This document shows positions 17,493-31,697 of a stretch of DNA of 31,697 nucleotides, one piece after another (the first letter of the stretch is position 1; each line of letters starts with the position of its first letter). The stretch is from IMG/VR virus record IMGVR_UViG_3300033993_002755, positions 1 through 31,697 of that record; one strand, given 5' to 3'. The DNA is from a virus. Below the pieces are notes generated by a model. It was not told where the DNA came from and did not search any database. It was given only the letters and a program-made list of their open reading frames with translations. Both the position numbers and the translations under genes were made by a program.

Positions 17493-17550
17493 TACACGAG
17501 GATAACATAAGGCATAGTCCCTAGCAACTCTTACCTTACTTGCTTGTGTT

Positions 17551-17585
17551 AAAGCACGCTGCTAAAGTCCTGGCATGCGTGCTTT
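17551..17585 (+). promoter_or_regulatory. hairpin holding the patatin start codon
   Basis: AAAGCACGC and GCGTGCTTT form a perfect 9-bp stem, extended by TGC/GCA past a single bulged T, with a 10-base loop. The ATG of the patatin-like gene lies in the right arm, partly in the bulge. If the mRNA folds this way the start would be hidden, which suggests control of translation; it could also be an operator at DNA level. Confidence 0.5.
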
Positions 17586-18429: not shown

Positions 18430-18943
18430 TGAACCAGCCCATTCCTGTGAACGCTTGCTCAAACAAAGCGGGTCTTGGCCCCCAATAAGCCAGGAAGGAA
18501 GGAAACAAGGCTGGAGACGCGGCACCCAAGAAAGTAACACGTCCTTCCAGCAATAAAAGTTTGTCTGCGGTAGGACACACCAGCTTTTGAAAGAATTGCG
18601 TATCAGTACGTGCAGGTCCTAGCAGTATAATCTCTGTGTCATTACTTTCTTCTTTTGCACGTTTAGCTTCGTTTACGCACTTCTGTACCCACGGCTTGAT
18701 TTTCCTGCCATATGGTGGGTTGACGTATACCATCCCTCCACACTGCCACGACTCAGCCAGACCGTCTTTGTCAATATCTGGTCCGGAGAACTTCTGCGTA
18801 GCAGTGATTATGCTGTTAGGGTTTGAGCATGGGTCTAGCGCGATGTCTCTGAAATTAACGTAGATTGGCGCTAGGATACGGGGTGGCGTATTCCAATGCT
18901 GGTTGGCACTAGAGGTCATTTTGTTTATCGTGGCGGCGTCCAT
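18413..18943 (-). CDS. phage DNA N6-adenine methyltransferase (Dam-like)
   Basis: Predicted adenine methyltransferase of the phage Dam family, 176 residues. Visible motifs: HWNTPP near the start, LDPCSNP (about 36-42), and the catalytic NPPYG (75-79), followed by helices (VQKCVNEAKRAKEE), then ILLGPARTDTQFF and GRVTFLG. The order and length fit this family, which uses S-adenosylmethionine to protect phage DNA. An ATG nine codons later is an alternative start. It has a promoter candidate just upstream and a convergent overlap with the patatin gene. Confidence 0.85.
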   Translation of the reverse strand: MDAATINKMTSSANQHWNTPPRILAPIYVNFRDIALDPCSNPNSIITATQKFSGPDIDKDGLAESWQCGGMVYVNPPYGRKIKPWVQKCVNEAKRAKEESNDTEIILLGPARTDTQFFQKLVCPTADKLLLLEGRVTFLGAASPALFPSFLAYWGPRPALFEQAFTGMGWFISRTP

Positions 18944-18950
18944 GTGGCAT

Positions 18951-18979
18951 ACCCTAACCCTTATTTCTTGTTATGTCAA
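18951..18979 (-). promoter_or_regulatory. possible sigma-70-type promoter for the methylase
   Basis: Reading leftward, a perfect TTGACA, a 17-base spacer and TAGGGT (3 of 6). The -10 box ends only 8 bases before the assigned start codon, so transcription may begin at or inside it and favour the second ATG (nine codons later). Confidence 0.35.
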
Positions 18980-19032
18980 AGTGCAGTTGCTTTTCACAGG
19001 ATATAAGCTACCTTTAATATTGGAGGTTCTCT

Positions 19033-19194
19033 ATGGTGATCGTACTAGACATATTATCCCCGGATAAAGAAGAGGTAGCCCCCAAGAAGTCTGAAGTAAC
19101 GGAACAACCAAAAGAGACCCTCGTAGATATGCAAAGGCTAACACGAGTACAAGTGATATCCATCACTGGTGAACTAGTAGACATGTACGTTTGA
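19033..19194 (+). CDS. hypothetical protein, 53 aa
   Basis: A short gene with a strong ribosome binding site (GGAGG six bases before the ATG). The peptide starts with a hydrophobic strand (MVIVLDILS), has a charged middle rich in Glu and Lys (KEEVAPKKSEVTEQPKE) and ends with a beta-like part (RVQVISITGELVDMYV). No family recognised. It is the first gene of a short rightward unit and lies 13 bases before the probable virion protein gene, so it may be a small structural or assembly protein. Confidence 0.65.
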   Translation: MVIVLDILSPDKEEVAPKKSEVTEQPKETLVDMQRLTRVQVISITGELVDMYV

Positions 19195-19207
19195 AAACGG
19201 CCAACAA

Positions 19208-19840
19208 ATGCCCACACCTACAAAAGCGGAACTACTTGCACTGCTTCAAGCGGAGAAACTTGGTTCTCCCAAGTCAGATGCTATTCAACAGCACGTTCTT
19301 AGTACTTTCTTAGACAAGAACTATGATACTGAAACAGTAAGCAGAATTATTCATACACCAGGGATAACGCCTAGCACTAACAGTACTGTTCCAGGTGGGG
19401 GACCAGAGCCGATAGCTATAGGAACGTTGCTTGGTCTTCACTTCAAGCGAGACACTGACCTAGTGTATAGCTACTCAAAAATACAAAGCAGCTTTTTGTC
19501 TGATGCTAGCTTCCATGTGCACTGGACCAAGGCAGTAGACACTAACCAGGCTGGGGCAACTGTCAGGTGGCGACTTCGTTACACCGTGTTTAACGGCATA
19601 TCTCAGGACTTGATAGCAGGTCCAACAGGCACAATCATTTGGGATGATACTTACGACGATAGCGGAACTACAAGTAGAATAGTGTATCGCACACCAAACA
19701 TAGCAGCGACAGGATTTGTAGCCAATTATTACGTAGGGGTCGAACTGGGCTTCGTAGCGGCAAACACTACGTTAGCTAATCGTCCAGTTGTAATTTCCTG
19801 TGATATCTTAAGCAGGAATTCTATCAACGAAGGCAACTGA
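19208..19840 (+). CDS. probable virion protein, beta-sandwich type, 210 aa
   Basis: The N-terminal 60 residues are helical and polar; the rest is beta-rich with patterns seen in phage neck, tail or decoration proteins: FHVHWTKAVDTNQAGATVRWRLRYTVF, TIIWDDTYDD and YYVGVELGFVA. The HxHW and VRWRLRY strands are the most telling. I do not know the exact family. The ribosome binding site is weak. The 5' end of the gene (ATGCCCACACCTA) is repeated just after its stop as a short frame, suggesting a past duplication. Confidence 0.6.
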   Translation: MPTPTKAELLALLQAEKLGSPKSDAIQQHVLSTFLDKNYDTETVSRIIHTPGITPSTNSTVPGGGPEPIAIGTLLGLHFKRDTDLVYSYSKIQSSFLSDASFHVHWTKAVDTNQAGATVRWRLRYTVFNGISQDLIAGPTGTIIWDDTYDDSGTTSRIVYRTPNIAATGFVANYYVGVELGFVAANTTLANRPVVISCDILSRNSINEGN

Positions 19841-19845
19841 GCAGA

Positions 19846-19905
19846 ATGCCCACACCTAAAAAAGAGGTCAATCTCGAACCATCAAGTCGTGTCAGTGCTT
19901 CCTGA
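19846..19905 (+). pseudogene. possible remnant of a duplicated gene start
   Basis: A 19-codon frame starts with nearly the same 20 bases as the preceding virion-protein gene (peptides MPTPTKAE and MPTPKKEV) and then stops. It reads as the remaining start of a second copy, or as a very small peptide gene. Its 3' half overlaps a hairpin. Confidence 0.3.
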
Positions 19906-19913
19906 CCCTTGAT
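19881..19913. terminator. hairpin at the end of the rightward unit
   Basis: ATCAAG pairs with CTTGAT, and inside this GTCAG pairs with CTGAC around a 6-base loop. A short T-containing tail (TGACTTTACT) follows on the rightward strand. It lies between the convergent virion-protein unit and the long leftward gene block, a suitable place for a terminator. Confidence 0.4.
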
Positions 19914-19921
19914 TGACTTTA

Positions 19922-20260
19922 CTAGTCTTCCACCACATCGTAGAGGTCTCTGTCTCCAAGATTCCAATCGCCCAGTACGCGATGGATGCCTCCACAAGAT
20001 TCAATAAGCTCACGCACGTCATCTTCAGTGGGGTTTTCGGGAGCGTCACCATCCGGCCACAAAGCCTTTACATCCAGCGTAGCTTCAGCTTCATACCTAA
20101 TGACGAACTTTTTCATTTTACCACGTACCTCTCCGCTGCCTTTGCATACATCGCAGTTGACAGTAAAAGCGCCCTCATCGTCCTCTGCAAGTTCCTCTCC
20201 GCTGCCTTTGCAGGCTCGGCACTCGACCCAATCCCATTCACTAGGCTCGCTCTTTAACAT
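19922..20260 (-). CDS. DnaJ-type zinc-motif protein, 112 aa
   Basis: The N-terminal part has two CxxCxGxG zinc knuckles (CRACKGSG near residue 14 and CDVCKGSG near residue 36), as in the central zinc domain of DnaJ, but there is no J domain or substrate-binding domain. After it come a basic strand (KMKKFVIRYEAEATLDV) and an acidic tail (DLYDVVED). It may act as a stand-alone redox or chaperone-like adaptor. AAAGG in the end of the upstream gene gives the ribosome binding site. It is the last gene of the leftward block. Confidence 0.7.
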   Translation of the reverse strand: MLKSEPSEWDWVECRACKGSGEELAEDDEGAFTVNCDVCKGSGEVRGKMKKFVIRYEAEATLDVKALWPDGDAPENPTEDDVRELIESCGGIHRVLGDWNLGDRDLYDVVED

Positions 20261-20265
20261 TTTCT

Positions 20266-20451
20266 TTAACCTTTCTTAGGGACCAGGTCGTAGTTAAGCC
20301 GCAGGTATTCCATCATGTAGTGCAGCGAGATTACCTTTTCTTTGCAAGAGTAGCTCATGTGTTGTTCGCAGAGTGCGTTAAGTAGGTCGCAAGCTTTAGT
20401 GAGTGACGCGTCTTTCAACTCTGGGTTGATTTCGAATTTATAGTTACCCAT
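20266..20451 (-). CDS. hypothetical protein, 61 aa
   Basis: No family recognised. Helical and rich in Leu, Cys and Met (ACDLLNALCEQHMSYSCKEKVISLHYMMEYLRL), ending in a basic tail. Start chosen at the ATG giving MGNYKFE; a GTG three codons earlier is open too. The gene begins inside the end of the coiled-coil protein gene upstream (about 37 nt overlap) and ends five bases before the zinc-motif gene. Confidence 0.55.
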   Translation of the reverse strand: MGNYKFEINPELKDASLTKACDLLNALCEQHMSYSCKEKVISLHYMMEYLRLNYDLVPKKG

Positions 20452-20918
20452 ATACAGCACTTCTTTCCCCTGCTTAGAGCCGCGTTGGCACTACGTGCTA
20501 CAGCAATCACACACTCTAGTGGTGCTACATCTCCAATACGTCCGGTGTCGTCTGTGCTCACCAATCCCAGCGCTTCTGCTACTTTGACAAAAGCATAACG
20601 TGCTGCGTCGCGTTCGGTACGCATATGCGAGTTTTCTTCGCGAAGCTTTTCTATCGTTTCCTCCGCGACCTCGCACCGAGCTGTGAGCATTTCATTGACC
20701 GTACGGTGCTGGTCTACCTTTAGCACGGATTCTTTGACAGCCGCTTGAGCTGAGCCTTCCATCAGCCTCGCGTTTACGTACTTCCTGTAGATTTCTACAG
20801 CCATGGTTTGCGCTTGTTCTCCGAGCCTAGTTGTGGGCTTGCCCCACCTTGGCAGCGCTCCGTGATAGATCGAGTCGAGCGCGTCCCTTAACTCTCGCAA
20901 GTCTTCTGCGGTAGTCAT
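20415..20918 (-). CDS. hypothetical coiled-coil protein, 167 aa
   Basis: No family recognised. The sequence is almost all helix, with a coiled-coil-like section (AEETIEKLREENSHMRTERD) in the middle, followed by a short unit with Gly and Thr (LVSTDDTGRIGDVAP) and a helical end. This layout resembles many phage proteins of unknown role located among replication or regulatory genes. It overlaps the gene upstream by 4 nt, and the following gene begins inside its 3' end. Confidence 0.6.
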   Translation of the reverse strand: MTTAEDLRELRDALDSIYHGALPRWGKPTTRLGEQAQTMAVEIYRKYVNARLMEGSAQAAVKESVLKVDQHRTVNEMLTARCEVAEETIEKLREENSHMRTERDAARYAFVKVAEALGLVSTDDTGRIGDVAPLECVIAVARSANAALSRGKKCCIWVTINSKSTQS

Positions 20919-21319
20919 CGTGCTTTTCCTTCGTCCATTTTACAGCACCACAAGAGGTATTCAGCTTCTTGCTTAGCCATCCGGCTAACATGTCGATTGC
21001 CCTGGGTAATGGCCAAAAAGTTTAGGATTTCGATGAGGGCGTCTCTCTTGTTTAACGTTCCTGAGGTAACCAGAGTGGTAGACTTCCTGCTTTCATACCT
21101 ACCTATTGCAATTTCCTTGCCTTTTCTCTTATTGAATTGATCTCCAGGCTTTTTCACGAAGGTTATCCGCTCTTGACTACTGTAAGCACACACCCATTCG
21201 GTTGGCGCGTTTATAGAGAACCCAAACCTCACACGATTGCCACTGATGGTGTATGCGATCGTCATAGTCCTGTTAGGGTTATTGACGTCAGGAACATAGG
21301 CAAAATAGAAGTTGGTCAC
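20915..21319 (-). CDS. hypothetical protein, 134 aa
   Basis: No family recognised. The N-terminal half has beta strands (NFYFAYVPDV, TMTIAYTISGNRVRFGFSIN, then WVCAYS), while the C-terminal half is helical with Cys-Cys and charged residues (EAEYLLWCCKMDEG). The GTG chosen has AAGGA ten bases upstream; a TTG 17 codons earlier is in frame but coincides with the -35 element of a likely promoter. The stop overlaps the next start by 4 nt. Confidence 0.55.
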   Translation of the reverse strand: MTNFYFAYVPDVNNPNRTMTIAYTISGNRVRFGFSINAPTEWVCAYSSQERITFVKKPGDQFNKRKGKEIAIGRYESRKSTTLVTSGTLNKRDALIEILNFLAITQGNRHVSRMAKQEAEYLLWCCKMDEGKAR

Positions 21320-21341
21320 TGTGTCAGCTTCCTTTGTAGAG

Positions 21342-21370
21342 AGGGTATGAGCCGAGCAGGCCCGTGTCAA
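21342..21370 (-). promoter_or_regulatory. possible sigma-70-type promoter in the leftward block
   Basis: Reading leftward, a perfect TTGACA, a 17-base spacer and TACCCT (3 of 6) lie directly before the ribosome binding site of the 134-residue protein gene, in a gap between genes. It would drive the last four genes of the block. Confidence 0.35.
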
Positions 21371-21372
21371 GC

Positions 21373-21846
21373 TCAGTTTAGACTGCTTGCAGCGTTGAGC
21401 GGTTCTCCATGAGCATGCATAATAATTGCCATCAACGTTCCGTACATCGCTAATTGAGTCGGGGTAGCTTCTTCGCTAGTCCTGATTTTCTCAAGTAAGG
21501 TGTATACTGTATTAGCGGACAGTAGTTTGACGTTCCCTCCGATGTCCATTGGGCAAAATCCGTTCTTTCCGTACTTGCGCTCAAACATGGCGTTAAACAC
21601 TTCTTTCTCTGGAAGCTCTTCGAACACCATAGGTACCGGCTCGTTATCGTCGCCCAACACAAGAGGCAAAAGCGTGTCTGGTGAGGGCAATTCTGGAAGC
21701 TTCTTGATTTCTTGCGCAGGCTCAGGGGACTGTTGCTGTTTCTCCGTGTTGGGGTAAGCGTTCAACGCCCTCTGAAAAAGGGAGTATGACCACACATTGA
21801 GCTTTGCTGCGATCCAAATTAGCAGGTTTGTATACTGTTCTCGCAT
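21373..21846 (-). CDS. hypothetical protein, 157 aa
   Basis: No family recognised. The N terminus is hydrophobic and helical with Trp residues (YTNLLIWIAAKLNVWSYSLFQRAL), perhaps a membrane-interacting helix. A Pro/Gln-rich linker follows, then an acidic region (GDDNEPVPMVFEELPEKE) and a helical C terminus. The ATG chosen has GAGG seven bases upstream; an earlier start would lie inside the neighbouring gene. Confidence 0.55.
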   Translation of the reverse strand: MREQYTNLLIWIAAKLNVWSYSLFQRALNAYPNTEKQQQSPEPAQEIKKLPELPSPDTLLPLVLGDDNEPVPMVFEELPEKEVFNAMFERKYGKNGFCPMDIGGNVKLLSANTVYTLLEKIRTSEEATPTQLAMYGTLMAIIMHAHGEPLNAASSLN

Positions 21847-21856
21847 GCTTTTACCT

Positions 21857-22189
21857 CTAGTTCGCCAACACTGCCAAGAAAACAAACTCATCATCACCGG
21901 TCCACATATGCCTAGGTGCAACTAGTACCCCTATCCGTTTCTTACTTTCTTCAAACGCCTCGTCAACGTCGTTAAACGGTCCATGAAATTGAACATACTT
22001 AGACATTGTTATTTCCGTTTGGGAGAACTCTTCAGTGTCTATCGTATTCTGCTCTGTTTCATCTAAGAAGCGTTGTATAGACGCCCAGATTATGGCTTTT
22101 CTCATACTGTCAGTGAGTGCGTGATCTCCTATTACTTCAGCAAATTGAAGGGGAAATTCATCATCGAATGGTAAGCCGCCAGCATTCAT
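21857..22189 (-). CDS. hypothetical protein, 110 aa
   Basis: No family recognised. Acidic and mostly helical (MRKAIIWASIQRFLDETEQ, then FNDVDEAFEESKKRIG), ending with a hydrophobic strand (DDEFVFLAVLAN). GAGAGG five bases upstream supports the ATG. It lies directly after the first repeat-family gene in the direction of transcription, separated by about 50 bases that show no clear terminator. Confidence 0.6.
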   Translation of the reverse strand: MNAGGLPFDDEFPLQFAEVIGDHALTDSMRKAIIWASIQRFLDETEQNTIDTEEFSQTEITMSKYVQFHGPFNDVDEAFEESKKRIGVLVAPRHMWTGDDEFVFLAVLAN

Positions 22190-22240
22190 TTTGCCTCTCT
22201 GTCTGTTGCATCAACCAACAACTCCAGCTTAGCACGCGCG

Positions 22241-22663
22241 CTATGCAATAACATCTCTCCTAAGTTCTAGAATACCTAGGATACTCTCATACTCAAGAGA
22301 GGTATTACAGTTGAGTAATGAGTTAGCTAGCTCTAAGGTTTCATTTGAGAGTGGGAGAAACAAGTGATGTAAAGCCTTGGGGATTCCCATCTCCTCCAAT
22401 ATTGCTTCACCGTCACCGTAACCGTTACCGTAACCTTTACCGTAACCTTTACCGTAACCGTCACCGTCACCGTCACCGTAACCGGTACCGTTACCGTAAC
22501 TGTAGTTACCGTTACCGGTACCGTTACCGTAACCGTTACCGTCACCGTCACCGTTACCGTAACCTTTACCGTTACCGTCACCGTTACCTTTACCGTAACC
22601 TTTGCCGTGACCGTCACCGTAACCGTCACCGTTACCGGCACCGTCCCCGTCTAAGGTAGACAT
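22241..22663 (-). CDS. Gly-X repeat protein with conserved C-terminal domain, copy 1
   Basis: Member of the repeat family of this window. MSTLDG is followed by about 40 Gly-X pairs (X is Asn, Asp, Tyr, Lys, His or Thr), then the common C-terminal domain from EAILEEMGIPKAL to SILGILELRRDV. The tract includes the aromatic interruption NYSYGNG. It lies downstream of the HerA-like ATPase gene and, unlike the other complete copies, has no GGAGAGA before its start: the ATG sits inside a perfect 12-base palindrome (GACATATATGTC), with only GAAAG upstream. The Gly-polar part is expected to be disordered or fibrous. Function unknown. Confidence 0.75.
   Translation of the reverse strand: MSTLDGDGAGNGDGYGDGHGKGYGKGNGDGNGKGYGNGDGDGNGYGNGTGNGNYSYGNGTGYGDGDGDGYGKGYGKGYGNGYGDGEAILEEMGIPKALHHLFLPLSNETLELANSLLNCNTSLEYESILGILELRRDVIA
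22409..22650 (-). repeat. (GGTNAC)n hexanucleotide tract, copy 1
   Basis: About 40 near-perfect six-base units, in frame with the repeat protein. The variable base is mostly the first base of every second codon. No stop occurs in any frame of either strand over most of the tract. Confidence 0.9.
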
Positions 22664-22692
22664 ATATGTCTTTCAATACAGAGATGAGTGTA

Positions 22693-24030
22693 TTACGCGT
22701 TCTTCGCCTGATATACGTCAATAGCACGCGTTGCGTCTTCTACTTTGGCCCACGCAAAGTCAGATTGTTGACGCTCAAACTCTGCCCTTGCCTCTTCAAG
22801 TTTCAACTTTAGCAGTTGAAGACTCATGATTTGCTCTGCAACTCCAGTGGAAAACAGCTTCTTAATCTCAATAGGACTCATTGGGCCACGAAGCTCGGCG
22901 CTACAGTCTCGTGACGTGAAAATGGCCGTTCCTGTGGGACGGACCAACAGGAATTGTCGTGGTTGCAAACGTGCGATACTAGATTCTACAACCCGTGAAT
23001 CCTGTGGAGTGGCAGCGCAGATTCCGTTGACTACTCTTGCTCTATCATTCTGTGTCTGCAGGCGTCCAACCAACCAGGTCTGCGCGTTCGACATACCTTT
23101 GTAATCCAAGTCCATTGGATTCTGAGAGCAAATGACGATACCCAATCCATGGGCGCGTGCTTGCTTGAGCATGGTCAGCAGGGGCTTTTTAGTTGGTGGG
23201 TTTGCTGGGTGTGGGGGCATCACTCCGTACATCTCATCCAGTAATAGGCACATTTTGAGATCCGCTGTGCCGGGTTGCTTGCGCATCCAAGAAAGCATTT
23301 CTTCAAGAAACATGCTGATGGCAAAGTTTCGCTCTGCGTCATCGACTAGGTGTGCAACGGAGTAGATTACGACGGGTACTTTTCCAGGCGCGCACTCAAG
23401 CAACCGTGTCACGTCAATGGACACGCCTTCCCTCCATGCTTGGAACGAGGGCGCAGCGAGAAGATTGTTCAGTTTCGCCATCAACTTTCCACGAGACTGA
23501 GCTGGGAACACTTCGTCCAGCGGCAGCATACCCAGGTACTCAAACGGCGGCTCTGCGATGTCGTTTAGGACATCGACGATAGTGCACGGCTTGTTGCCCT
23601 TTAGCCTCCACTGAATGATGTTTGCTAGAAATGTATGCTGTGTAGATGTTACGTCTGCTTTGGTTCCCATGAGCTTGAACAGCGTGGTTACCGTAGACGT
23701 GATTCGATCTTCATTTTCGATGCCTGAAAAGATGTTTACAGCCTCACCGTGATTTCCCCCTGGGGTCAGGAAGCGCAGTGCCATACGTTCGCGTACTTCC
23801 TCAGGCTGCAAAGCTACGTTTGCGATGTCTCCTTTGATGTCACACAGAAATACTGGGATGTTATTTCTAACAAGCTCCTCAACCATTCCGATAATCAAGC
23901 CTGACTTACCGGAGCCTGTGGCACCACAAATTACCGCATGTGTAGTTAACGCAGCTGCCTTCAAGGCAACATTGTGTGTTGCTCCATCAGGAGACGTCCT
24001 AGATCCCAGATTGATAATAGCGTCGCTCAC
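22693..24030 (-). CDS. HerA/DUF87-like P-loop ATPase
   Basis: Predicted hexameric DNA-translocase-type ATPase, 445 residues. Walker A is GATGSGKSG (36-44), followed by a second conserved stretch VFLCDIKGDIANV (60-72). Walker B is LLLDEMYG (262-269); SQNPMDLDYKGMSNAQTWLVGRLQT (302-326) includes sensor-like residues and IARLQPRQFLLVRPTG the C-terminal beta part. These match HerA/VirB4-like and YjgR-type ATPases. The C terminus is a charged helix that could be a coiled coil. The GTG start overlaps the stop of repeat-family copy 2, and copy 1 follows after 29 bases, so the ATPase is embedded in the repeat-protein cluster. No HerA-partner NurA was recognised. Confidence 0.85.
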   Translation of the reverse strand: MSDAIINLGSRTSPDGATHNVALKAAALTTHAVICGATGSGKSGLIIGMVEELVRNNIPVFLCDIKGDIANVALQPEEVRERMALRFLTPGGNHGEAVNIFSGIENEDRITSTVTTLFKLMGTKADVTSTQHTFLANIIQWRLKGNKPCTIVDVLNDIAEPPFEYLGMLPLDEVFPAQSRGKLMAKLNNLLAAPSFQAWREGVSIDVTRLLECAPGKVPVVIYSVAHLVDDAERNFAISMFLEEMLSWMRKQPGTADLKMCLLLDEMYGVMPPHPANPPTKKPLLTMLKQARAHGLGIVICSQNPMDLDYKGMSNAQTWLVGRLQTQNDRARVVNGICAATPQDSRVVESSIARLQPRQFLLVRPTGTAIFTSRDCSAELRGPMSPIEIKKLFSTGVAEQIMSLQLLKLKLEEARAEFERQQSDFAWAKVEDATRAIDVYQAKNA

Positions 24031-24476
24031 TTCGTACCTCTTTGTGAATTAATTAGTTGTTCGTTTCTAAGCTCTAGAATACCTAGGATGCTCTCATACT
24101 CAAGAGAGGTATTACAACTAAGTAGTGCGTTAGCCAGCTCTAAGGTTTCGTTGGAGAGTGGGAGAAACAAGTGCTTTAGAGCATTGGGGATTCCCATCTC
24201 CTCCAATATTGCTTCACCATAACCGTCACCGTAACCGTCACCGTTACCGTAACCGTTACCGTCACCGTCACCGTTACCGTCACCGTCACCGTTACCTTTA
24301 CCGTAACCGTAACCGTTACCGTTACCGTAACTGTAGTTACCGTTACCGGTACCGTTACCGTTACCGTAACCGTTACCGTTACCGTGACCGTTACCGTTAC
24401 CGTTACCGTTACCGTTACCGTTACCGTGACCGTTACCGTTACCGTAACCGTTACCGTAACCGTCTAGCGTGGACAT
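24027..24476 (-). CDS. Gly-X repeat protein with conserved C-terminal domain, copy 2
   Basis: Longest copy, 149 residues. It starts MSTLDGYGNG, has a tract dominated by Asn with Tyr, Asp and His, the aromatic interruption NYSYGNG, and the common C-terminal domain. After SILGILELR the sequence does not end but adds NEQLINSQRGTK, overlapping the GTG of the ATPase gene. That overlap couples this copy to the ATPase. GGAGAG in the last codons of copy 3 provides its ribosome binding site. Confidence 0.75.
   Translation of the reverse strand: MSTLDGYGNGYGNGNGHGNGNGNGNGNGNGHGNGNGYGNGNGTGNGNYSYGNGNGYGYGKGNGDGDGNGDGDGNGYGNGDGYGDGYGEAILEEMGIPNALKHLFLPLSNETLELANALLSCNTSLEYESILGILELRNEQLINSQRGTK
24216..24463 (-). 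repeat. (GGTNAC)n hexanucleotide tract, copy 2
   Basis: About 41 six-base units in frame with the repeat protein, with Asn (AAC) the most frequent variable codon. Confidence 0.9.
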
Positions 24477-24897
24477 ACGTCTCTCTCCTAAGTTCTAGGA
24501 TACCTAGGATGCTCTCATACTCAAGAGAGGTATTACATTTGAGTAGGGTGTTAGCTAGCTCTAAGGTTTCGTTGGAGAGTGGGAGAAACAAGTGCTTTAG
24601 AGCATTGGGGATTCCCATCTCCTCCAATACTGCTTCACCGTTACCGTCACCGTAACCGTCACCGTAACCGTTACCGTAACCGTTACCGTTACCGTAACCG
24701 TTACCGTAACCGTTACCTTTACCGTAACCGTTACCGTAACCGCTGCCGTTACCGTAACCGTTACCGTCACCGTAACCGTTACCGTAACTGTAGTTACCGT
24801 TACCGGTACCGTTACCGTTACCGTAACCGTTACCGTCACCGTCACCGTAACCGTTACCGTTGCCGTTACCGTTACCGTTACCTTCTAGCGTAGACAT
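24451..24897 (-). CDS. Gly-X repeat protein with conserved C-terminal domain, copy 3
   Basis: 148 residues. MSTLEGNGNG start, a tract with Asn, Tyr, Asp, Lys and Ser at the variable positions and the interruption NYSYGNG, then EAVLEEMGIPNALKHLF (Val in place of the usual Ile) and SILGILELRRE, with an added tail TYVHARRLR. It overlaps copy 2 by 26 nt. It is the first copy of its cluster in the direction of transcription; the gene before it is an unrelated hypothetical. AGGAGAG stands before its start. Confidence 0.75.
   Translation of the reverse strand: MSTLEGNGNGNGNGNGYGDGDGNGYGNGNGTGNGNYSYGNGYGDGNGYGNGSGYGNGYGKGNGYGNGYGNGNGYGNGYGDGYGDGNGEAVLEEMGIPNALKHLFLPLSNETLELANTLLKCNTSLEYESILGILELRRETYVHARRLR
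24637..24884 (-). repeat. (GGTNAC)n hexanucleotide tract, copy 3
   Basis: About 41 six-base units in frame, with alternating Asn and Tyr codons over long parts. Adjacent Asn and Tyr units form small inverted repeats (GTAAC-G-GTTAC). Confidence 0.9.
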
Positions 24898-24938
24898 ACG
24901 TCTCTCCTAAGCTCCATACTCAGGGAAGTAGGACATCT

Positions 24939-25403
24939 TCACGCGTCATACATCTTCAGCTTGGTGGCGTCCCCTACAGGCTGGAATACTTGAAGGAACG
25001 CATGCAACGGAAGCTCTGAAACCTCAGCCTCAACGTCCCCTAAAGGGATGAAGTGCACGCTATACACATACACGTTGTCTTCTACGTCTACCGTCAAGTC
25101 AGTAACTAAGAAGTGCCCTTCCAGTTCTTCTGGTCCATGGCGGTATGCCCACTCTACTCCAACAACTGCTTCTAAAAGCTTTGTTGCTACTTCTTTATGT
25201 ATGTTCAATCCGTCCTGTGCTGTCGGTGCACTGACTGCTGCGCGCTCGCTGTACCAGGGGATTACCACTTCTTCAATAATGACAATCGCCGCGCTCTCTC
25301 GAATGCGGCGAAGTGATTTCAACATAGCTGTTATGATCATGTTATCCTTCATCCTCTCCAGATGAGCTTTTATGTCCAGTGGCTTCGGCCAACGCCTGGG
25401 CAC
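24939..25403 (-). CDS. hypothetical protein, 154 aa
   Basis: No family recognised. An N-terminal helical part (LDIKAHLERMKDNMIITAMLKSLRRIRES) is followed by an alpha-beta region with VVIPWYSERAA and a C-terminal beta-rich half (GHFLVTDLTVDVEDNVYVYSVHFIPLG). The start is uncertain: the GTG used here gives the longest form, but ATG codons 17 and 21 codons later have AGG-type sites nearby. It is transcribed just before repeat-family copy 3. Confidence 0.55.
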   Translation of the reverse strand: MPRRWPKPLDIKAHLERMKDNMIITAMLKSLRRIRESAAIVIIEEVVIPWYSERAAVSAPTAQDGLNIHKEVATKLLEAVVGVEWAYRHGPEELEGHFLVTDLTVDVEDNVYVYSVHFIPLGDVEAEVSELPLHAFLQVFQPVGDATKLKMYDA

Positions 25404-25420
25404 TTGCCTGGTCTAGCCTA

Positions 25421-25672
25421 CTAACCTTCCTCAATAAACACAGGTCCCCAAGGTGTTGACAGTAGCACTTCACCAGTATCGGAGCTGGCAAACTTATACT
25501 TAGTCCATTCGTACTTCCTAGAGTTAGCCCATTCAGCGATTAGCATGTCTAGAGTTGCCCTGGTAACTGAAACTCGCTGAATTGGTTTATCTGCGATTTC
25601 GTTAACCAAGGCAAGCCAAGCCACGAACTCATTCGCTGTCGAGAACGAGGTCTTCTGAAGTAGGGTCGTCAT
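25421..25672 (-). CDS. hypothetical protein, 83 aa
   Basis: No family recognised. The N-terminal half is helical (ANEFVAWLALVNEIADKPIQRVSVTRATLDMLIAEWANS), the end beta-like (EVLLSTPWGPVFIEEG). It starts inside the end of the probable small terminase gene, with a 44-nt overlap in another frame. The C-terminal pattern, with a hydrophobic strand ending in Pro-Trp-Gly, is often seen in small phage proteins of unknown role. Confidence 0.55.
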   Translation of the reverse strand: MTTLLQKTSFSTANEFVAWLALVNEIADKPIQRVSVTRATLDMLIAEWANSRKYEWTKYKFASSDTGEVLLSTPWGPVFIEEG

Positions 25673-26417
25673 TCGCGGTCTCTGTGTCTACCACCTCTGC
25701 GTCTTCGATGCCAGGATCAGGTGTTGGTTCTTCCAACGCAACCAACTGTTTAGCTACGATAGCATCTCCAAGGGATTTCTTTGCATCTCCGTTCTTCCAC
25801 GCCTTGATGAACGGCGACACCTCCAAAGTATGCTTGACGTTGATCTCAGCCTTCTTGATCAAGCCCAAGTCCATCAAAAGCTTTGTGTGCTTTTCTCGCG
25901 CCTGCATCACCACTGCTAAGGATTTAGCCTTGTCACTAACTTCCTCTGCTGAGTGGTACAGTTCCCAGGCTCTAAATTCAATTTCTTCGTAAAGAGATGC
26001 AGTGCTGCCTACTACTTCTTCTTGATTTACGTTTTTACCCCTGGATGCTTGCCATTCTTTGATTCTTTTTAGTTCTTTACTAATCCATACTTGGCTCGTG
26101 CCAATGACGTTAGCTATCGCTTCTTGTGATAGGCCGCGCATACGTAGCCTAGCAATCATCTTCTGACGCTCAGTTAGCCCAGTAAACGGGTCTTCAATTT
26201 CCTTAGGAGAATAAGGAATCTGCAACTTGTCGGCGGGCACGTCCGGTACGTCCCCAGCTATTAGCTGAGTTAGTGCCTTTTGCTCTGCGATCTTCTCGTC
26301 TTCCTCGATTTGTTTTTGCAACTTTTCTTGCAGTTGTATCTTTGTCAGCTTGGTGTTCTCTGGTACACCAAGCCGCTTAATCAATTCCTCACGTTCTTTG
26401 TCCTTTGTTCTAGCCAT
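25629..26417 (-). CDS. probable terminase small subunit or HTH DNA-binding protein
   Basis: 262 residues. The N terminus is charged and coiled-coil-like. The middle has LTERQKMIARLRMRGLSQEAIANVIGTSQVWISKELKRI, a clear helix-turn-helix of the sigma-region-4 or terminase-small-subunit kind. A helical region (ELYHSAEEVSDKAKSLAVVMQAREKHTKLLMDLGLI) follows, and the tail is acidic. This order fits small terminases, which bind DNA through an N-terminal helix-turn-helix and oligomerise by helices. A transcription regulator is the alternative. The ATG chosen has GGAG five bases upstream. Its distance and opposite strand from the large terminase are unusual. Confidence 0.6.
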   Translation of the reverse strand: MARTKDKEREELIKRLGVPENTKLTKIQLQEKLQKQIEEDEKIAEQKALTQLIAGDVPDVPADKLQIPYSPKEIEDPFTGLTERQKMIARLRMRGLSQEAIANVIGTSQVWISKELKRIKEWQASRGKNVNQEEVVGSTASLYEEIEFRAWELYHSAEEVSDKAKSLAVVMQAREKHTKLLMDLGLIKKAEINVKHTLEVSPFIKAWKNGDAKKSLGDAIVAKQLVALEEPTPDPGIEDAEVVDTETANDDPTSEDLVLDSE

Positions 26418-26430
26418 GATACTCCGTACG

Positions 26431-26469
26431 CATAAAAGACATGAGGGAGAGCCTTGTGCAGACCCTCCC
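26431..26469 (-). terminator. intrinsic-type terminator hairpin
   Basis: Reading leftward, GGGAGGGTC pairs with GGCTCTCCC (two wobble pairs) around a 7-base loop, and the tail TCATGTCTTTTATG follows. It lies directly after the stop of the 62-residue gene and before the small-terminase-like gene, so it may reduce read-through between the two. Confidence 0.45.
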
Positions 26470-26475
26470 CCATAA

Positions 26476-26664
26476 TCAGCCACCATGCCCTAGCGCTGCT
26501 CGATCTTCGAAGACGAAAGTCTTCTTATACGCGTCGAACCACACCTTAGCTGCCCTATAGAATCTATCTAGCTTTTCAAACTCCATGTCATAGATAGCTG
26601 TCTTGATGTTCTTGGGTAGGTCGGCACACACTCCATTACCGTCCTTCACAAGGACTTTACTCAT
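26476..26664 (-). CDS. hypothetical protein, 62 aa
   Basis: No family recognised. It starts MSKVLVKDGNGV and is mostly helical (IKTAIYDMEFEKLDRFYRAAKVWFDAYKK), ending in a short Gly/His tail. A strong GGAGGGG lies before the ATG, which overlaps the end of the gene upstream by 8 nt. A terminator-like hairpin follows its stop. Confidence 0.6.
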   Translation of the reverse strand: MSKVLVKDGNGVCADLPKNIKTAIYDMEFEKLDRFYRAAKVWFDAYKKTFVFEDRAALGHGG

Positions 26665-26890
26665 TAGGTCCCCTCCACATGAAGAATGCGCTGCTAACTG
26701 CGTACTCGACGAACTCTCCGACTCGGTAGGCAAATACTTCCTCTTTCGTAGAAGTCTTTGCTGCGTTTCGTGCCAGGTCGTCACAGGACTTGATGATACT
26801 CTCTAGCGGCTCGTCGTGGTTCACGACCACATCGTGTCCAGTGGGAACGAAAACACCCTGCTCTCGGCGCAAAATACTGTGCGTGTACAT
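26657..26890 (-). CDS. hypothetical protein, 77 aa
   Basis: No family recognised. The N-terminal part is beta-like (GVFVPTGHDVVVNHDEP), the rest helical (LESIIKSCDDLARNAAKTS, then VFAYRVGEFVEYAVSSAFFMW). GAGG five bases before the ATG supports the start. It is placed in a series of four short leftward genes after a good promoter, and overlaps the next gene by 8 nt. Confidence 0.6.
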   Translation of the reverse strand: MYTHSILRREQGVFVPTGHDVVVNHDEPLESIIKSCDDLARNAAKTSTKEEVFAYRVGEFVEYAVSSAFFMWRGPNE

Positions 26891-26896
26891 TTTTCC

Positions 26897-27229
26897 TCAC
26901 TCAATGACAGTGGTATTAGACGAAGCGTCAAACGTTGCGTTGTTGAACTCTACAGCGTCAGTTTCAGTGGAAAGCTTCTTCGGTCGTCCGGTCAACCATG
27001 TCCTCGGCTCAGCCTTCAGCTTACACAGGTAGTTAATCACTCGTCCCTCTTCCTCCGACTTACGGCTGCGGATCTGGTACCACTTTCCTTCAAAGCAGAA
27101 GGTAGATGATCCGTTCACCTTCACAATATCGGCAAGAGTTTGTTCATAGGCAATCTGTGACTTCTTTACTGCTTCCTCCGCTGCAAAAGAATTTACAATC
27201 AGGTCGGTGATAGACGTGTTAGTTTCCAT
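26897..27229 (-). CDS. hypothetical protein, 110 aa
   Basis: No family recognised. A helical N terminus (ITDLIVNSFAAEEAVKKSQIAYEQTLADIV) is followed by a beta-hairpin pattern (SSTFCFEGKWYQIRSRKSEE) and a region with TWLTGRPKKL, then an acidic and Thr-rich end. AAAGG eight bases before the ATG is its ribosome binding site. It is the first gene after the best promoter of the leftward block. Confidence 0.65.
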   Translation of the reverse strand: METNTSITDLIVNSFAAEEAVKKSQIAYEQTLADIVKVNGSSTFCFEGKWYQIRSRKSEEEGRVINYLCKLKAEPRTWLTGRPKKLSTETDAVEFNNATFDASSNTTVIE

Positions 27230-27278
27230 TTTACTTTTCCTTTACTTATTGTTACTGGGTAATACTCAACCCATTCGT

Positions 27279-27307
27279 ACTGTACTGTCACTGGCTATAG
27301 TTGTCAA
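27279..27307 (-). promoter_or_regulatory. sigma-70-type promoter in the leftward block
   Basis: Reading leftward, a perfect TTGACA, a 17-base spacer and TACAGT (4 of 6) lie in the 88-base gap between two genes, about 50 bases before the start of the 110-residue gene. It probably drives the genes from there towards the small terminase. Confidence 0.55.
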
Positions 27308-27317
27308 CAAGAAATCG

Positions 27318-27788
27318 CTACTCGTTTTCCTTGTCGTCTTTCTCTTCTTCTTCCTCAGGTTCTGTCTCTTCTTCTTCCTCTGGAGCTTCCACAACTACGA
27401 GGTTAAAGAAACCGGGTGTTTGTCTCAAGTCCCAGCCTACCTCTAAAAGCTTTTCTTCATCAAGAACTGCGAAGTCTTCAAGCGCCCAAGAGTAGCTCCA
27501 CAGAGGAGACTTCTTCTTGAGTAGCGTTATGTGTAGTTGCTTTCCATCTTCTCCGAGAATTGGTTCGCGCGACAAAATTCCAGACGTAACAAGCAAGTCA
27601 GCAATGCTGTGACTGAACGCAGTATTTGGGTCACCTAGTAGCTTTACTGGAGTAATATACCCTGTGTTGGTTGGGTATTCTGCACAAAGCAGGATCTTGG
27701 CATTCCTTTCCGCAACATATCTTTTTGTATGCTCTGACATGTCGCCAACGAACGCGCACGGTTGCGTGATCATGATATGCATGGTCAT
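27318..27788 (-). CDS. hypothetical protein with acidic C-terminal tail, 156 aa
   Basis: No family recognised. The first 120 residues look like an alpha-beta fold (ITQPCAFVGDM, AKILLCAEYPTNTGYITP, LHITLLKKKSPLWSY, FFNLVVVEAP). It ends in a run of Glu, Asp and Lys of about 25 residues (EEEEETEPEEEEEKDDKENE), probably disordered and able to mimic nucleic acid or bind basic proteins. Its start overlaps the lipoprotein stop (ATGA). Ocr/gam-like DNA mimicry is conceivable, but only the tail suggests it. Confidence 0.6.
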   Translation of the reverse strand: MTMHIMITQPCAFVGDMSEHTKRYVAERNAKILLCAEYPTNTGYITPVKLLGDPNTAFSHSIADLLVTSGILSREPILGEDGKQLHITLLKKKSPLWSYSWALEDFAVLDEEKLLEVGWDLRQTPGFFNLVVVEAPEEEEETEPEEEEEKDDKENE

Positions 27789-28336
27789 CCCTCTACCCAG
27801 TGAATGCTACAGTTTTCAACACCTGAAACACAGGACAAATCAACCTGCCCCGACGCAGCTACTAGCATAGTCAGCAGGCAGTCATACCTCACACCTCCAC
27901 AGGTAACTGGAAAGCGCACACCCCGGCTACCCACTCCAACCGGCTCCCAATCTCCGCTGAAATAGAGCGGGATAAACACGCTATCGCAGTATTCAGCCAG
28001 TACCTGACCGGTTGCCGTGCAGGTGGAAATCCTTGCTTGTTGTAGATTAACAACTCTGGCATTCACCAAGGGACCGACGCAAGTGTTTCTTTCAGCGCGG
28101 TAGGTTCTTGCTTCGTTGAGTGATAGTCCTGGGCATTCAGGAAATCCTCCAGTGTCGTCGGAAATGACGACATTACGTGCGTCTTCGCCCACTAAACCAG
28201 CAGCATCTTCCATTGTGCTTGCGGTGGCTCCGTCGTCCCTCGTGATGCCTGCATCGCTGTCAATTGTAACGTACACGATGCGCTCCGTACAACCAGTCAA
28301 GCTTGCACACAGTCCTAGAATAATGAAAGGCTTCAT
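27785..28336 (-). CDS. predicted lipoprotein, 183 aa
   Basis: A signal peptide (MKPFIILGLCASLTGC) with a good lipobox LTGC predicts a lipid anchor on Cys16. It is followed by an acidic, Asp-rich low-complexity linker typical of surface lipoproteins in the Myxococcota, then a domain with several cysteines (NTCVGPLVNARVV, ISTCTATGQVLAEYC, FPVTCGGVRYDCLLTM, LSCVSGVENC), probably disulphide bonded. A GGAGA ribosome binding site precedes the ATG. A second phage-encoded lipoprotein in the window, perhaps for superinfection exclusion or spanin-like lysis, but no family was recognised. Confidence 0.7.
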   Translation of the reverse strand: MKPFIILGLCASLTGCTERIVYVTIDSDAGITRDDGATASTMEDAAGLVGEDARNVVISDDTGGFPECPGLSLNEARTYRAERNTCVGPLVNARVVNLQQARISTCTATGQVLAEYCDSVFIPLYFSGDWEPVGVGSRGVRFPVTCGGVRYDCLLTMLVAASGQVDLSCVSGVENCSIHWVEG

Positions 28337-28614
28337 GCTCCGGCTCTCCTTGTATAGACCTCGGGATTGTTTTCTCTATGAAACTTCTCGATCTCGTCTA
28401 CCTGAGAAATCTCCTGTTCTCGTGTGCGAGGATAAATCGTGGTGATGTACAAGTGCTTGGGCAGAGCGTTTACCACTGGATATGTGGTGAATTTGTCTAG
28501 TGACGTATCGTAATATACGAATAGCGGGTCTGTGCCCATCATTCCGTCTGGTGTGGCAAGCCGACCACACTTGACAGTGTCAGTCTCAACCTGTTTTGGT
28601 GTATAGCGCTTCAT
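28333..28614 (-). CDS. hypothetical protein, 93 aa
   Basis: No family recognised. The N terminus is basic (MKRYTPKQVE), the middle has beta-like segments (PLFVYYDTSLDKFTTYPVV, HLYITTIYPRTREQE) and the end is charged. Both its start and its stop overlap neighbours by 4 nt, so it is translated together with the zinc-finger protein gene and the lipoprotein gene. Confidence 0.6.
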   Translation of the reverse strand: MKRYTPKQVETDTVKCGRLATPDGMMGTDPLFVYYDTSLDKFTTYPVVNALPKHLYITTIYPRTREQEISQVDEIEKFHRENNPEVYTRRAGA

Positions 28615-29396
28615 GAATTTTCCTTTCTAAGCTCAAGTATCGCTAGAATGGAGTCTTTAGTTTCTTGCGTTCCATCCAAGAACTCATTTAGCGTGTAAAG
28701 TGCTTCTTCCCCTGGCGAACCATACAACAAGTCCAACAACGCACTGATGCCCTCTGGCGCCCAGCATTCTTCTTCATATGTACGACAGGTAGGGTTCCAG
28801 GCGGTGCGAGCGTTTGTAATGCCTAGGCGGTCTAGAAACTCTTCTTTAGCTTCCTCCAAAGATCGATCGATTTTTCTAAACGTTTTCCAATCCATCCAGT
28901 CTACGTGTGCCTTAAGTTCCTTTGCTTTGTCATTCATGGCTGACAGAAACACGCTTTGTAGGTGGGTGTGCAGCTTTTCGAATCCCATTTCTCGCATCGA
29001 AAATCTGCGAAGCTCTGATTGGCATGCAGGAGAAGCTTGATGCTTCTTTACGCCACGATGAGTTACTAGCTGATTACATACTTTGCACGGGGAGACGTTG
29101 TGCACCTGAACTAAGTGCGCGTACAAAGCTCGCATAGTTGGCTGCACGTTACTGGTGCTGTGTGAGCGGTACACACGTACTACGCCTTCTTCTTCAATCT
29201 GCCAAGAAGACTTGTGCGTCTTCAAGCCCTCGATGCGCTCATCTAGTTGTGGGCACATCTTGCAGTGGACTACTGCTTTTCGGCCAGTGTAGGCCTGCTT
29301 AGTAGGGTCCCAAGCTCCATACACGGAATCAACCGTAAACCTAGACAAGACTTGCGACTGCTGCGCGTATGTCAGTTCACAATTTACAGTGTTCAT
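28611..29396 (-). CDS. zinc-finger protein sharing the repeat-family C-terminal domain
   Basis: 261 residues. The N-terminal half has a CxxC knuckle (HCKMCPQL) and a long His region, then a C2HC finger: CKVCNQLVTH...KKHQASPAC (C-x2-C-x11-H-x5-C). The middle is helical. The C-terminal 48 residues (GISALLDLLYG ... SILAILELRKENS) align with the tail of the Gly-X repeat proteins: similar spacing of Leu, Asn and Glu, and SIL.ILELR at the same end position. This shared tail links it to the repeat family. AGGAAAATATG supports the start. It probably binds nucleic acid or protein through the finger and a common partner through the tail. Confidence 0.7.
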   Translation of the reverse strand: MNTVNCELTYAQQSQVLSRFTVDSVYGAWDPTKQAYTGRKAVVHCKMCPQLDERIEGLKTHKSSWQIEEEGVVRVYRSHSTSNVQPTMRALYAHLVQVHNVSPCKVCNQLVTHRGVKKHQASPACQSELRRFSMREMGFEKLHTHLQSVFLSAMNDKAKELKAHVDWMDWKTFRKIDRSLEEAKEEFLDRLGITNARTAWNPTCRTYEEECWAPEGISALLDLLYGSPGEEALYTLNEFLDGTQETKDSILAILELRKENS

Positions 29397-29409
29397 ATTT
29401 TCCTACGAT

Positions 29410-30357
29410 TCACAATGCGCGAAAGAAAGCTGACGCGTGCTTTGGGTTATTAATCATGCGCAAGCCAGTTGGGCTGATAGCCTTGCACACAAGCTTAACA
29501 ACGTCTAGCACACGCTCCTTGTGTTTCATGCCTCGCGTATGCTTGCCCATTCGCTCATATGATTCTCCGCAGAAGACACACTTACTTCCTGGAATGGAGA
29601 ACTGCTCGTTGCGCACAATGCTGGTGTGGTTGTTCTCGGCCCACCGACGAACTGCGCTTTCATCAACAAGCCATTTCTTTTGTTCGGGTTCTCTAACTGC
29701 GAATGTTGCGGTGTCTAGTGGTGTCGTTAAGTGCAGGTAATTGCCGCTGGGCAAAACGAATCCATTGTGAGTGAAGCTGTAAGCATGCGTAACGTTGCGT
29801 ACCTCAAGGACTCTCGGAACGAGTGTTACGTGCTTATGAAAATGGCTAACCCTGTGAGAGTGCTTGCCCACGGAGGTAACACTGGGTAGCGTCATTACGC
29901 TTCGTGTGAGCTTATCTACTAGCCTTTGTAGTGCAACAACCTCCATAGGACGTTCAGCAGCCTCCTTACTCACCCTGCTGTTGTGAACCTCGATCATGTG
30001 CTCTTTAGTGGTATTGAATGCTGCGCGCATCAAAGGGCTAGCTCCATGCAGTTCCCCCAACTCGTTTCGATACGAGCTAATTGATTGTCCCCGCAAGGAC
30101 TTTACACGTCCCAACGCTGCACGGAACTTAGCAGTGACTGAGAAACAGGTTTCACCTCCCATTTCATGGAACGCTTGAACCGCTTCTCCATGCTTATGCT
30201 CACATTCCGAACCAACGTATAGCACGTTCTGCTTTTTATCGAAGATTACAACAGTATAGTGGGTACCGGATTCTCCATTGTGTGCCTTGGCGAAGGCACA
30301 CGGAACTCTGTCTACGACTACTGAGTGTGCGTTTGGGTTGTTGAAAAAATTTGACAT
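29410..30357 (-). CDS. C2H2 zinc-finger-containing protein, 315 aa
   Basis: No family recognised for the main part. The N-terminal 80 residues are beta-like (HYTVVIFDKKQNVLYVGSE, then TCFSVTAKFRAALGRVKS). A long helical and His-rich section follows. Near residue 265 lies a single finger, CVFCGESYERMGKHTRGMKH (C-x2-C-x9-H-x5-H), with the eukaryotic-like C2H2 pattern, after which a helix ends the protein. GAGG before the ATG supports the start. It stands between the second repeat cluster and the zinc-finger protein that carries the shared tail, so the three may act together. Nucleic-acid binding is likely; catalysis is not evident. Confidence 0.65.
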   Translation of the reverse strand: MSNFFNNPNAHSVVVDRVPCAFAKAHNGESGTHYTVVIFDKKQNVLYVGSECEHKHGEAVQAFHEMGGETCFSVTAKFRAALGRVKSLRGQSISSYRNELGELHGASPLMRAAFNTTKEHMIEVHNSRVSKEAAERPMEVVALQRLVDKLTRSVMTLPSVTSVGKHSHRVSHFHKHVTLVPRVLEVRNVTHAYSFTHNGFVLPSGNYLHLTTPLDTATFAVREPEQKKWLVDESAVRRWAENNHTSIVRNEQFSIPGSKCVFCGESYERMGKHTRGMKHKERVLDVVKLVCKAISPTGLRMINNPKHASAFFRAL

Positions 30358-30381
30358 CTCACACCTCGGTTCAGTTCGTTG

Positions 30382-30798
30382 CTAATCGTTTCTAAGTTCT
30401 AGGATACCTAGGATGCTCTCATACTCAAGAGAGGTATTACATTTGAGTAGGGTGTTAGCTAGCTCTAAGCTTTCGTTGGAGAGTGGGAGAAACAAGTGAT
30501 GTAAAGCCTTGGGGATTCCCATCTCCTCCAATATTGCTTCACCGTTACCGTTACCGGTACCGGTACCGTTACCGTGACCGTTACCGTTACTGGTACCGTA
30601 ACCGTTACCGTAACCGTCACCGTTACCGTAACCGTAACCGTCACCGTTACCGTTACCGTTACCGGTACCGGTACCATTACCATAAATGTAACCGTTACCG
30701 TTACCGTTACCGGTACCGTGACCGTTGCCGTAACCGTTGCCGTTACCGTTGCCGTTACCGGTACCGTCACCGTCACCGTTACCTTCTAGCATAGACAT
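30382..30798 (-). CDS. Gly-X repeat protein with conserved C-terminal domain, copy 4
   Basis: 138 residues. It starts MSMLEG, the only copy with Met at position three. The tract is rich in Asn and Thr, the aromatic interruption reads YIYGNG, and the C-terminal domain (EAILEEMGIPKALHHLF ... SILGILELRND) matches copy 1 in its middle. It overlaps copy 5 by 13 nt. It is the last copy of this cluster before the zinc-finger genes, and its 3' end no longer carries the GGAGAG found in the other copies of this array. Confidence 0.75.
   Translation of the reverse strand: MSMLEGNGDGDGTGNGNGNGNGYGNGHGTGNGNGNGYIYGNGTGTGNGNGNGDGYGYGNGDGYGNGYGTSNGNGHGNGTGTGNGNGEAILEEMGIPKALHHLFLPLSNESLELANTLLKCNTSLEYESILGILELRND
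30541..30784 (-). repeat. (GGTNAC)n hexanucleotide tract, copy 4
   Basis: About 40 six-base units in frame. Thr codons (ACC) create runs of the palindrome GGTACC here, more than in the other copies. Confidence 0.9.
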
Positions 30799-31190
30799 AC
30801 ATCTCTCCTAAGTTCTAGGATACCTAGGATACTCTCATACTCAAGAGAGGTATTAGAACTAAGTAGGGTGTTAGCTAGCTCTAAGCTTTCGTTGGAGAGT
30901 GGGAGAAACAAGTGCTTTAGAGCCTTAGGGATTCCCATCTCCTCCAATATTGCTTCACCGTCACCGTTACCGTTACCGTTACCGTAACCGTTACCGTCAC
31001 CGTCACCGTAACCGTCACCGTAACCGTTACCGTTACCGTCACCGTTACCGTAACCGTAACCGTAACCGTAACCGGTACCGTTACCGTTACCGATACCGTG
31101 ACCGTTGCCGTAACCGTTACCGTCACCGTCACCGTCACCGTAACCGTTACCGGTACCGTTACCGTCACCGTGACCTTCTAGCGTGGACAT
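30786..31190 (-). CDS. Gly-X repeat protein with conserved C-terminal domain, copy 5
   Basis: 134 residues, the shortest complete copy. MSTLEGHGDG start; at the place of the aromatic interruption it has an unbroken YGYGYGYGNG run, so the motif is present without a phase break. The C-terminal domain reads EAILEEMGIPKALKHLF ... SILGILELRRDVCLC. The ribosome binding site (AGGAGAGATG) lies in the last codons of copy 6, which overlaps it by 13 nt. Confidence 0.75.
   Translation of the reverse strand: MSTLEGHGDGNGTGNGYGDGDGDGNGYGNGHGIGNGNGTGYGYGYGYGNGDGNGNGYGDGYGDGDGNGYGNGNGNGDGEAILEEMGIPKALKHLFLPLSNESLELANTLLSSNTSLEYESILGILELRRDVCLC
30957..31176 (-). repeat. (GGTNAC)n hexanucleotide tract, copy 5
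   Basis: About 36-37 six-base units in frame, the shortest of the complete tracts. Confidence 0.9.
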
Positions 31191-31600
31191 ACATCTCTCC
31201 TAAGTTCCAGGATACCTAAGATGCTCTCATACTCAAGAGAGGTATTACAGTTGAGTAGGGTGTTAGCTAGCTCTAAGCTTTCGTTGGAGAGTGGGAGAAA
31301 CAAGTGCTTTAGAGCCTTAGGGATTCCCATCTCCTCCAATATTGCTTCACCGTTACCGTCACCGTTACCGTCACCGTCACCGTCACCGTAACCGCTACCG
31401 TAACCGTTACCGTCACCGTTACCTTTACCGTAACCGTTACCGTCACCGTTACCGTCACCGTTACCGGTACCGTTACCGTCACCGTAACCGTCACCGTCAC
31501 CGTAACCGGTACCGTTACCATAAACGTAACCGTAACCGTTACCGGTACCGTTACCGTCACCGTGACCGTTACCTTTACCTTTACCTTCTAGCGTAGACAT
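31178..31600 (-). CDS. Gly-X repeat protein with conserved C-terminal domain, copy 6
   Basis: 140 residues. MSTLEGKGKG start with several Lys codons, aromatic interruption YVYGNG, then EAILEEMGIPKALKHLF ... SILGILELRRDVCPR. Copy 7 overlaps its start by 13 nt and supplies its ribosome binding site. Asp-rich in the second half of the tract, so more acidic than copies 2 and 3. Same unknown function as the rest of the family. Confidence 0.75.
   Translation of the reverse strand: MSTLEGKGKGNGHGDGNGTGNGYGYVYGNGTGYGDGDGYGDGNGTGNGDGNGDGNGYGKGNGDGNGYGSGYGDGDGDGNGDGNGEAILEEMGIPKALKHLFLPLSNESLELANTLLNCNTSLEYESILGILELRRDVCPR
31349..31586 (-). repeat. (GGTNAC)n hexanucleotide tract, copy 6
   Basis: About 40 six-base units in frame, with Asp (GAC) and Asn codons dominant. 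Confidence 0.9.
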
Positions 31601-31697
31601 ACATCTCTCCTAAGCTCTAGAATACCTAGGATACTCTCATACTCAAGAGAGGTATTACAACTGAGTAGGGTGTTAGCTAGCTCTAAGGTTTCGTTGG
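31588..31697 (-). CDS. Gly-X repeat family member, copy 7 (C-terminal part only)
   Basis: The window ends inside a further copy. The visible part encodes the last 35 residues, from NETLELANTLL to SILGILELRRDVCLR, almost identical to copies 5 and 6. Its stop lies inside the first codons of copy 6. The array therefore goes on beyond this window to the right. Confidence 0.75.
   Translation of the reverse strand, partial: NETLELANTLLSCNTSLEYESILGILELRRDVCLR

Follow-up and report, generated by a model that had tools for sequence, protein, structure and literature searches.

The window analysed here is a whole IMG/VR record of 31,697 bases, which is only part of a larger phage whose terminase is of the gpA type and belongs to a clade of uncultured large bacterial viruses; relatives were reached through the HerA-like ATPase or TerL. 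The window is matched at 100% identity by two other IMG/VR contigs, 3300044678_003046 and 3300002408_004669 (1-11296 and 11562-23758), and a short gap between these parts is covered by neither. The minus strand carries a gene for a zinc-finger protein (Z), whose reading frame, strand and length are as given in an earlier note on this DNA (Table 1). Z contains the conserved metal-binding Cys/His residues of a C2H2/C2HC-like zinc finger, and none of the Pfam zinc-finger models matched it above the cut-off. The C-terminal end of Z reads QETKDSILAILELRKENS. A second zinc-finger gene, Z2, adjoins Z; its homologue lies near a cluster of tail-bearing genes in G009 (IMGVR_UViG_3300009177_000029), a 169-kb relative retrieved by the HerA-like ATPase query, with a TerL that is 74% identical and extended synteny to the window. 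In G009, zinc-finger and small genes with the tail stand in a row directly before the Z2 homologue (142715-146629), and a further gene there, at 146114-146629, ends in GGEELAK. The window also encodes seven glycine-repeat proteins (R1 to R7), the tails of which end in SLEYESILGILELR.

Table 1. Features of the window that carry, adjoin or form part of the C-terminal module (all on the minus strand).
Feature	Position	Strand	Remarks
Z, zinc-finger protein, 261 aa, shared C-terminal module	28611-29396	-	ORF; G009 homologues Z9a and Z9b; conserved Cys/His
Z C-terminal module, residues 211-261	28614-28766	-	helices predicted at 215-225, 230-239 and 244-260 (low confidence)
Z core motif QETKDSILAILELRK, residues 244-258	28623-28667	-	motif ranking from relatives' tails
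RBS and start (ATG) of the following gene, 28333-28614, within the final codons of Z (AGAAAGGAAAATTCATGA)	28612-28628	-	
Z zinc cluster C104-x2-C107-x11-H119-x5-C125	29022-29087	-	invariant in Z, Z9a and Z9b (alignment)
Z second Cys/His group C45-x2-C48-x12-H61	29214-29264	-	invariant in Z, Z9a and Z9b (alignment)
Z2, zinc-finger protein adjoining Z, without tail	29410-30357	-	ORF; G009 homologue 146772-147698
R1 tail (gene 22241-22663)	22244-22396	-	
R2 tail (gene 24027-24476)	24030-24203	-	C-terminal extension contains the RBS of the HerA-like gene
R3 tail (gene 24451-24897)	24454-24624	-	
R4 tail (gene 30382-30798)	30385-30528	-	
R5 tail (gene 30786-31190)	30789-30944	-	
R6 tail (gene 31178-31600)	31181-31336	-	helices predicted at residues 95-101, 106-118 and 124-135
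R7 tail	31588-31695	-	truncated by the record end

The (GX)n parts of the R proteins differ among copies and the tails are about 90% alike. These (GX)n parts are encoded by GGTNAC-type hexamer satellites (R genes 22241-31600, L014 5386-6685 and the end of L022), which leave long open frames in the other frames and on the opposite strand. Tandem R genes (30382-31697 and 24027-24897) overlap by 13 to 26 bases, and the start of a copy (MSTLE) falls within the last codons of the preceding copy (VCLR and stop). The leader before R3 (24898-24938, CTGAGTATGGAGCTTAGGAGAGACGT) looks like a truncated relic of an R tail, such as the deletion of a copy would leave.

The earlier note had claimed that the tail of Z aligns with those of the repeat proteins and had proposed tail alignment with significance testing as a check, and this alignment gives Smith-Waterman scores of 46-50 with one single-residue gap and reaches both C-termini. 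Shuffled tails score a mean of 22-25 (SD about 4), which corresponds to p about 2e-4 to 6e-4, and shuffles preserving the hydrophobic pattern give p = 6e-4. The Z-R score of 50 also lies above those of all 221 unrelated 60-aa C-termini from the same phages, where the top score is 29 for Z and 35 for R. Two of the three motifs named in the note can be read in the alignment, with SIL.ILELR exact in the Z and R tails and E.L...N..L present, whereas the register of the first, GI.(K)AL..L, is weak, since the N-terminal half of the alignment alone gives p about 0.07 and the alignable point of the wider family is instead the Pro ahead of the helix.

Part of this similarity can be ascribed to translation signals. 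The Shine-Dalgarno region of the following gene falls on the codons for LR[RK][DE] at the tail ends (AGGAGAGA for R, AGAAAGGAAAA for Z), and the inner R tail end CTTAGGAGAGA is the ribosome-binding site (RBS) of the next R copy, with the Arg-Arg codons supplying the RBS. Because the genes overlap and the last codons serve as RBS, the agreement at the final two to four positions may have this cause. Removal of LRRD lowers the Z-R score from 50 to 37 and changes p from about 0.0005 to about 0.014. The similarity of the 3' DNA, also claimed in the note, is clear only for R2 (25/31) and R4, and it falls mostly within the purine-rich RBS stretch; the Ser codons of the Z and R tails differ (AGC and TCC, respectively). 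In tightly packed operons, an RBS within the last codons can inflate C-terminal similarity. These data raise the alternative that unrelated C-termini have come to look alike by chance, through an amphipathic last helix combined with an RBS in the last codons, for which the RBS coding of LR[RK][DE] in both genes and a p of only 0.014 for Z-R without those residues both speak. A pure RBS artefact was rejected, as it explains the last two to four residues only.

The relatives of Z provide evidence that is independent of the Z-R comparison and confirms it. Two Z homologues in G009, Z9a and Z9b, were retrieved via the zinc-finger part and end in QAILGLWELAEMVP and FAMIGLWELADAPL (ILGLWELA and MIGLWELA), and the BLAST alignment of Z 94-256 with Z9a 92-263 includes the tail (E 8e-11 against a small database). 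G009 also encodes small proteins with similar ends, for example FDSIIGLYELAK and FDSVLGLWELSKAKD, a set that is partly selected because these proteins were first picked by a pattern derived from R and Z. With a motif built from Z9a and Z9b only, Z ranks 6 among 3045 C-termini, and the top seven (S168b, S144, S168a, one chance hit, Zc, Z and S114) comprise five G009 tail proteins, Z and the chance hit; when Z is added to this motif, the next ranks are taken by four G009 tails and then all R. In searches from which R was left out, R scores by its last 13-15 residues only (E 0.02-0.25), and profile-profile comparison of the tails gives a modest probability of 34-57.

The alternative of chance resemblance can be weighed against these relatives. 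When the RBS-coded columns are removed from the motif, leaving 13 columns from relatives' tails, Z ranks 1 and R ranks 2 among the untrained ORFs (3045). Six regex matches are seen in G009 where about 1 is expected by chance, and several G009 genes keep EL although the distance between its codons and the next start is too great for an RBS. Contigs outside the training set, found through TerL or HerA, served as an independent check; in one of them, the protein at G11 6866-7363 has a tail match (E 1.8e-7) four residues short of its C-terminus, and in another, G8 2115-2648 is a zinc-finger protein ending in VGMLELALE with a weak tail score. Conversely, a negative control of 3145 ORFs from two more distant relatives and two other contigs yielded almost no matches, with one high C-terminal score (K 33584-33934). 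Chance similarity of the Z and R tails is thus largely refuted by the relatives as far as sequence can tell, and the resemblance of unrelated C-termini is a highly improbable explanation. On the same sequence evidence, the tails of Z and R are one short C-terminal module in one clade of uncultured phages. The claim of the earlier note that one terminal module stands on unlike N-terminal parts was borne out and proved too narrow, as the module occurs beyond Z and R in at least 12 proteins across four related phages.

In more distant relatives, traces of the module are few. A server profile search of the whole distant contigs found no match and was apparently insensitive, and the contigs were then searched locally. 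Contig K (G398, L082 contig; 165.8 kb, PolA 55%) contains at most one or two candidates, K 33584-33934 ending in AAVDEFFNGYELAFVESEETE (VDEFFNGYELAFVESEETE) and K 94219-94626 ending in WDDVDSFLGGNR, which have other N-terminal parts and are possible distant members of the family by sequence. The 13.5-kb contig L013/L019 has a weak match to the R tail that is internal rather than C-terminal. Among the characterised phages in INPHARED, no relative of the full Z protein, Z9b, the R tail or a small tail protein was found.

The module comprises about 45-70 aa and ends in the motif [DE][SA].[LI]G[LI].EL, extended by [AR][KR]. It runs from a helix often starting with P.W, through a helix with A...GL.GD-like residues, to a last amphipathic helix. 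The alignment of Z with Z9a covers the module as far as residue 256 of Z, and R carries a compact form of the module. AlphaFold models of the Z and R6 tails contain three helices joined by turns, in the same order, at a low pLDDT of about 45-75, and the fold of the module is accordingly predicted to be helical. Its carriers differ in their N-terminal parts, which are zinc fingers (Z, Z9a, Z9b, Zc and G8), small Trp-containing proteins or (GX)n (R). Four members extend 24-67 residues beyond the motif, which shows that the C-terminus need not be free. Tail genes occur in runs, for example at 142715-144954 and 166866-169042 in G009. Pfam, PHROGs and NCBIfam gave no credible match for the tails or the tail-bearing proteins, and a PDB profile search with the module gave weak matches only, the best being designed helical repeats. 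Fold searches were uninformative, with generic three-helix bundles only for the R model (best E 1.3) and middling Z scores of 4-7.6 for the Z protein model, mostly in the central helices 138-195. A literature search found no description of such a module, which is new, small and clade-bound, and of a general kind that is already known.

The distribution of the R genes bears on the age of the tail. R genes occupy three sites in the window; the overlapping contig G004 adds a further site and L022 (RFPR01000115.1), a related contig, yet another. At the sites open to comparison, the flanking genes adjoin without R in G009 or G11. A search of G009 for an R gene found none. Since the flanks are joined without R in the relatives, and the tail is present on the Z homologues of the R-less G009, R is a lineage-specific expansion that is younger than the tail. 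An origin of the Z tail by transfer from R was considered and rejected, because the Z homologues in G009 already have it. A special role of the HerA-like ATPase, with which the earlier note had suggested co-folding the tail, is not supported; R genes lie at several separate places, the ATPase gene adjoins R only in the window, and HerA of G009 has no flanking tail-bearing genes, and it was rejected as the particular partner of the tail.

L022 contains an R gene, shares synteny with G009 at 127-133 kb, sits in a Proteobacteria MAG and is probably a phage contig from the clade of the window that was binned with a bacterium; a TerL search in 387 genomes from the phylum of this MAG gave no match. 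In the window, positions 4311-5579 hold a lipoprotein-like ORF that has a von Willebrand-like part and the Cys-rich stretches HCGSCDNACP and DNDCDGNIDG. Lipoprotein-like ORFs of this kind are common in myxobacteria, and this one may hint at the host.

The tail is shared, it is terminal, it stands on several unlike N-terminal parts, and its genes are clustered. When unlike viral proteins share a terminal module, this often points to an interaction hub, and the reading preferred here, which is on balance just probable, is that the tail is a module for docking to one shared protein of phage or host. This single partner would be bound by the hydrophobic face of the last helix, by which different N-terminal modules, namely putative nucleic-acid-binding zinc fingers and flexible glycine-rich chains, would be brought to the same place. 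A common binding partner is suggested by the conservation of a terminal helix on unlike, fast-evolving and co-encoded proteins. In addition, the tail of Z scores 50 against R, its neighbour in the same phage, and 40 and 29 against its own homologues, a pattern that adaptation of the tails to a partner within each phage would produce, as would local recombination. A tentative extension of the docking reading, and a rather doubtful one, is a tag system in which one receptor of the clade, located in a compartment, in the virion or in a captured host complex, would collect a changing set of tail-bearing proteins, tails would co-evolve with the receptor within each phage, and new cargo would be added by module fusion, most recently to (GX)n.

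The tail-bearing proteins might instead bind one another and not a third partner. Self-association is common among short helical modules with a hydrophobic face, and a single phage encodes several tail proteins next to one another, both of which agree with an oligomerisation module, whereas the tails diverge greatly in sequence inside G009; oligomerisation is on these grounds unlikely. The tandem runs of fast-evolving genes, which are unlike between close relatives, and the clear amplification of R as a cassette could also reflect passive paralogy, in which duplication and N-terminal replacement left the tail as a remnant hydrophobic core with no shared partner. Against this, the terminal motif is kept while the remaining tail and the N-terminal parts diverge beyond recognition, which makes passive paralogy a decidedly unlikely account. 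If docking to a common partner is correct, a module defined by sequence could expose a hub used by many uncharacterised phage proteins.

Known systems in which a terminal element directs unlike proteins include capsid-loading tags, and the tail could in principle act in this way, as a tag for loading into the virion or a compartment, like encapsulin cargo peptides or the capsid-targeting sequence of T4. The T4 capsid-targeting sequence of internal proteins is N-terminal and cleaved; it directs different phage proteins to one place and, like the module, is a short shared terminal stretch, and differs from the module in that the latter is C-terminal and is not known to be cleaved. In encapsulins, which have the HK97 fold, C-terminal targeting peptides govern encapsulation (PMC7925596), and these are likewise short hydrophobic C-terminal tags on unlike proteins (PMC7925596, PMC8346489). 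Encapsulin peptides are, however, short, sit on enzymes and serve a dedicated shell, whereas the phage module is longer, predicted to be helical and sometimes followed by more sequence, an extension ill-suited to a simple terminal peptide. None of the tail-bearing proteins could be recognised as part of the virion and no link of the module to a shell was found, and loading into a capsid is very improbable.

The docking reading has its counterpart in poxviral ankyrin-repeat proteins, in which a C-terminal PRANC/F-box-like domain docks to Skp1/SCF (PMC4353913, PMC3185573). No sequence relation was found, as the Pfam hits obtained with the tail members at E values up to 1 include no PRANC or F-box family; the hosts and partners differ, and the N-terminal parts in the phages are zinc fingers, small domains and (GX)n. 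Both systems place a short helical C-terminal module on viral proteins with varying N-terminal repeat or binding parts, a likeness that is analogy and not kinship.
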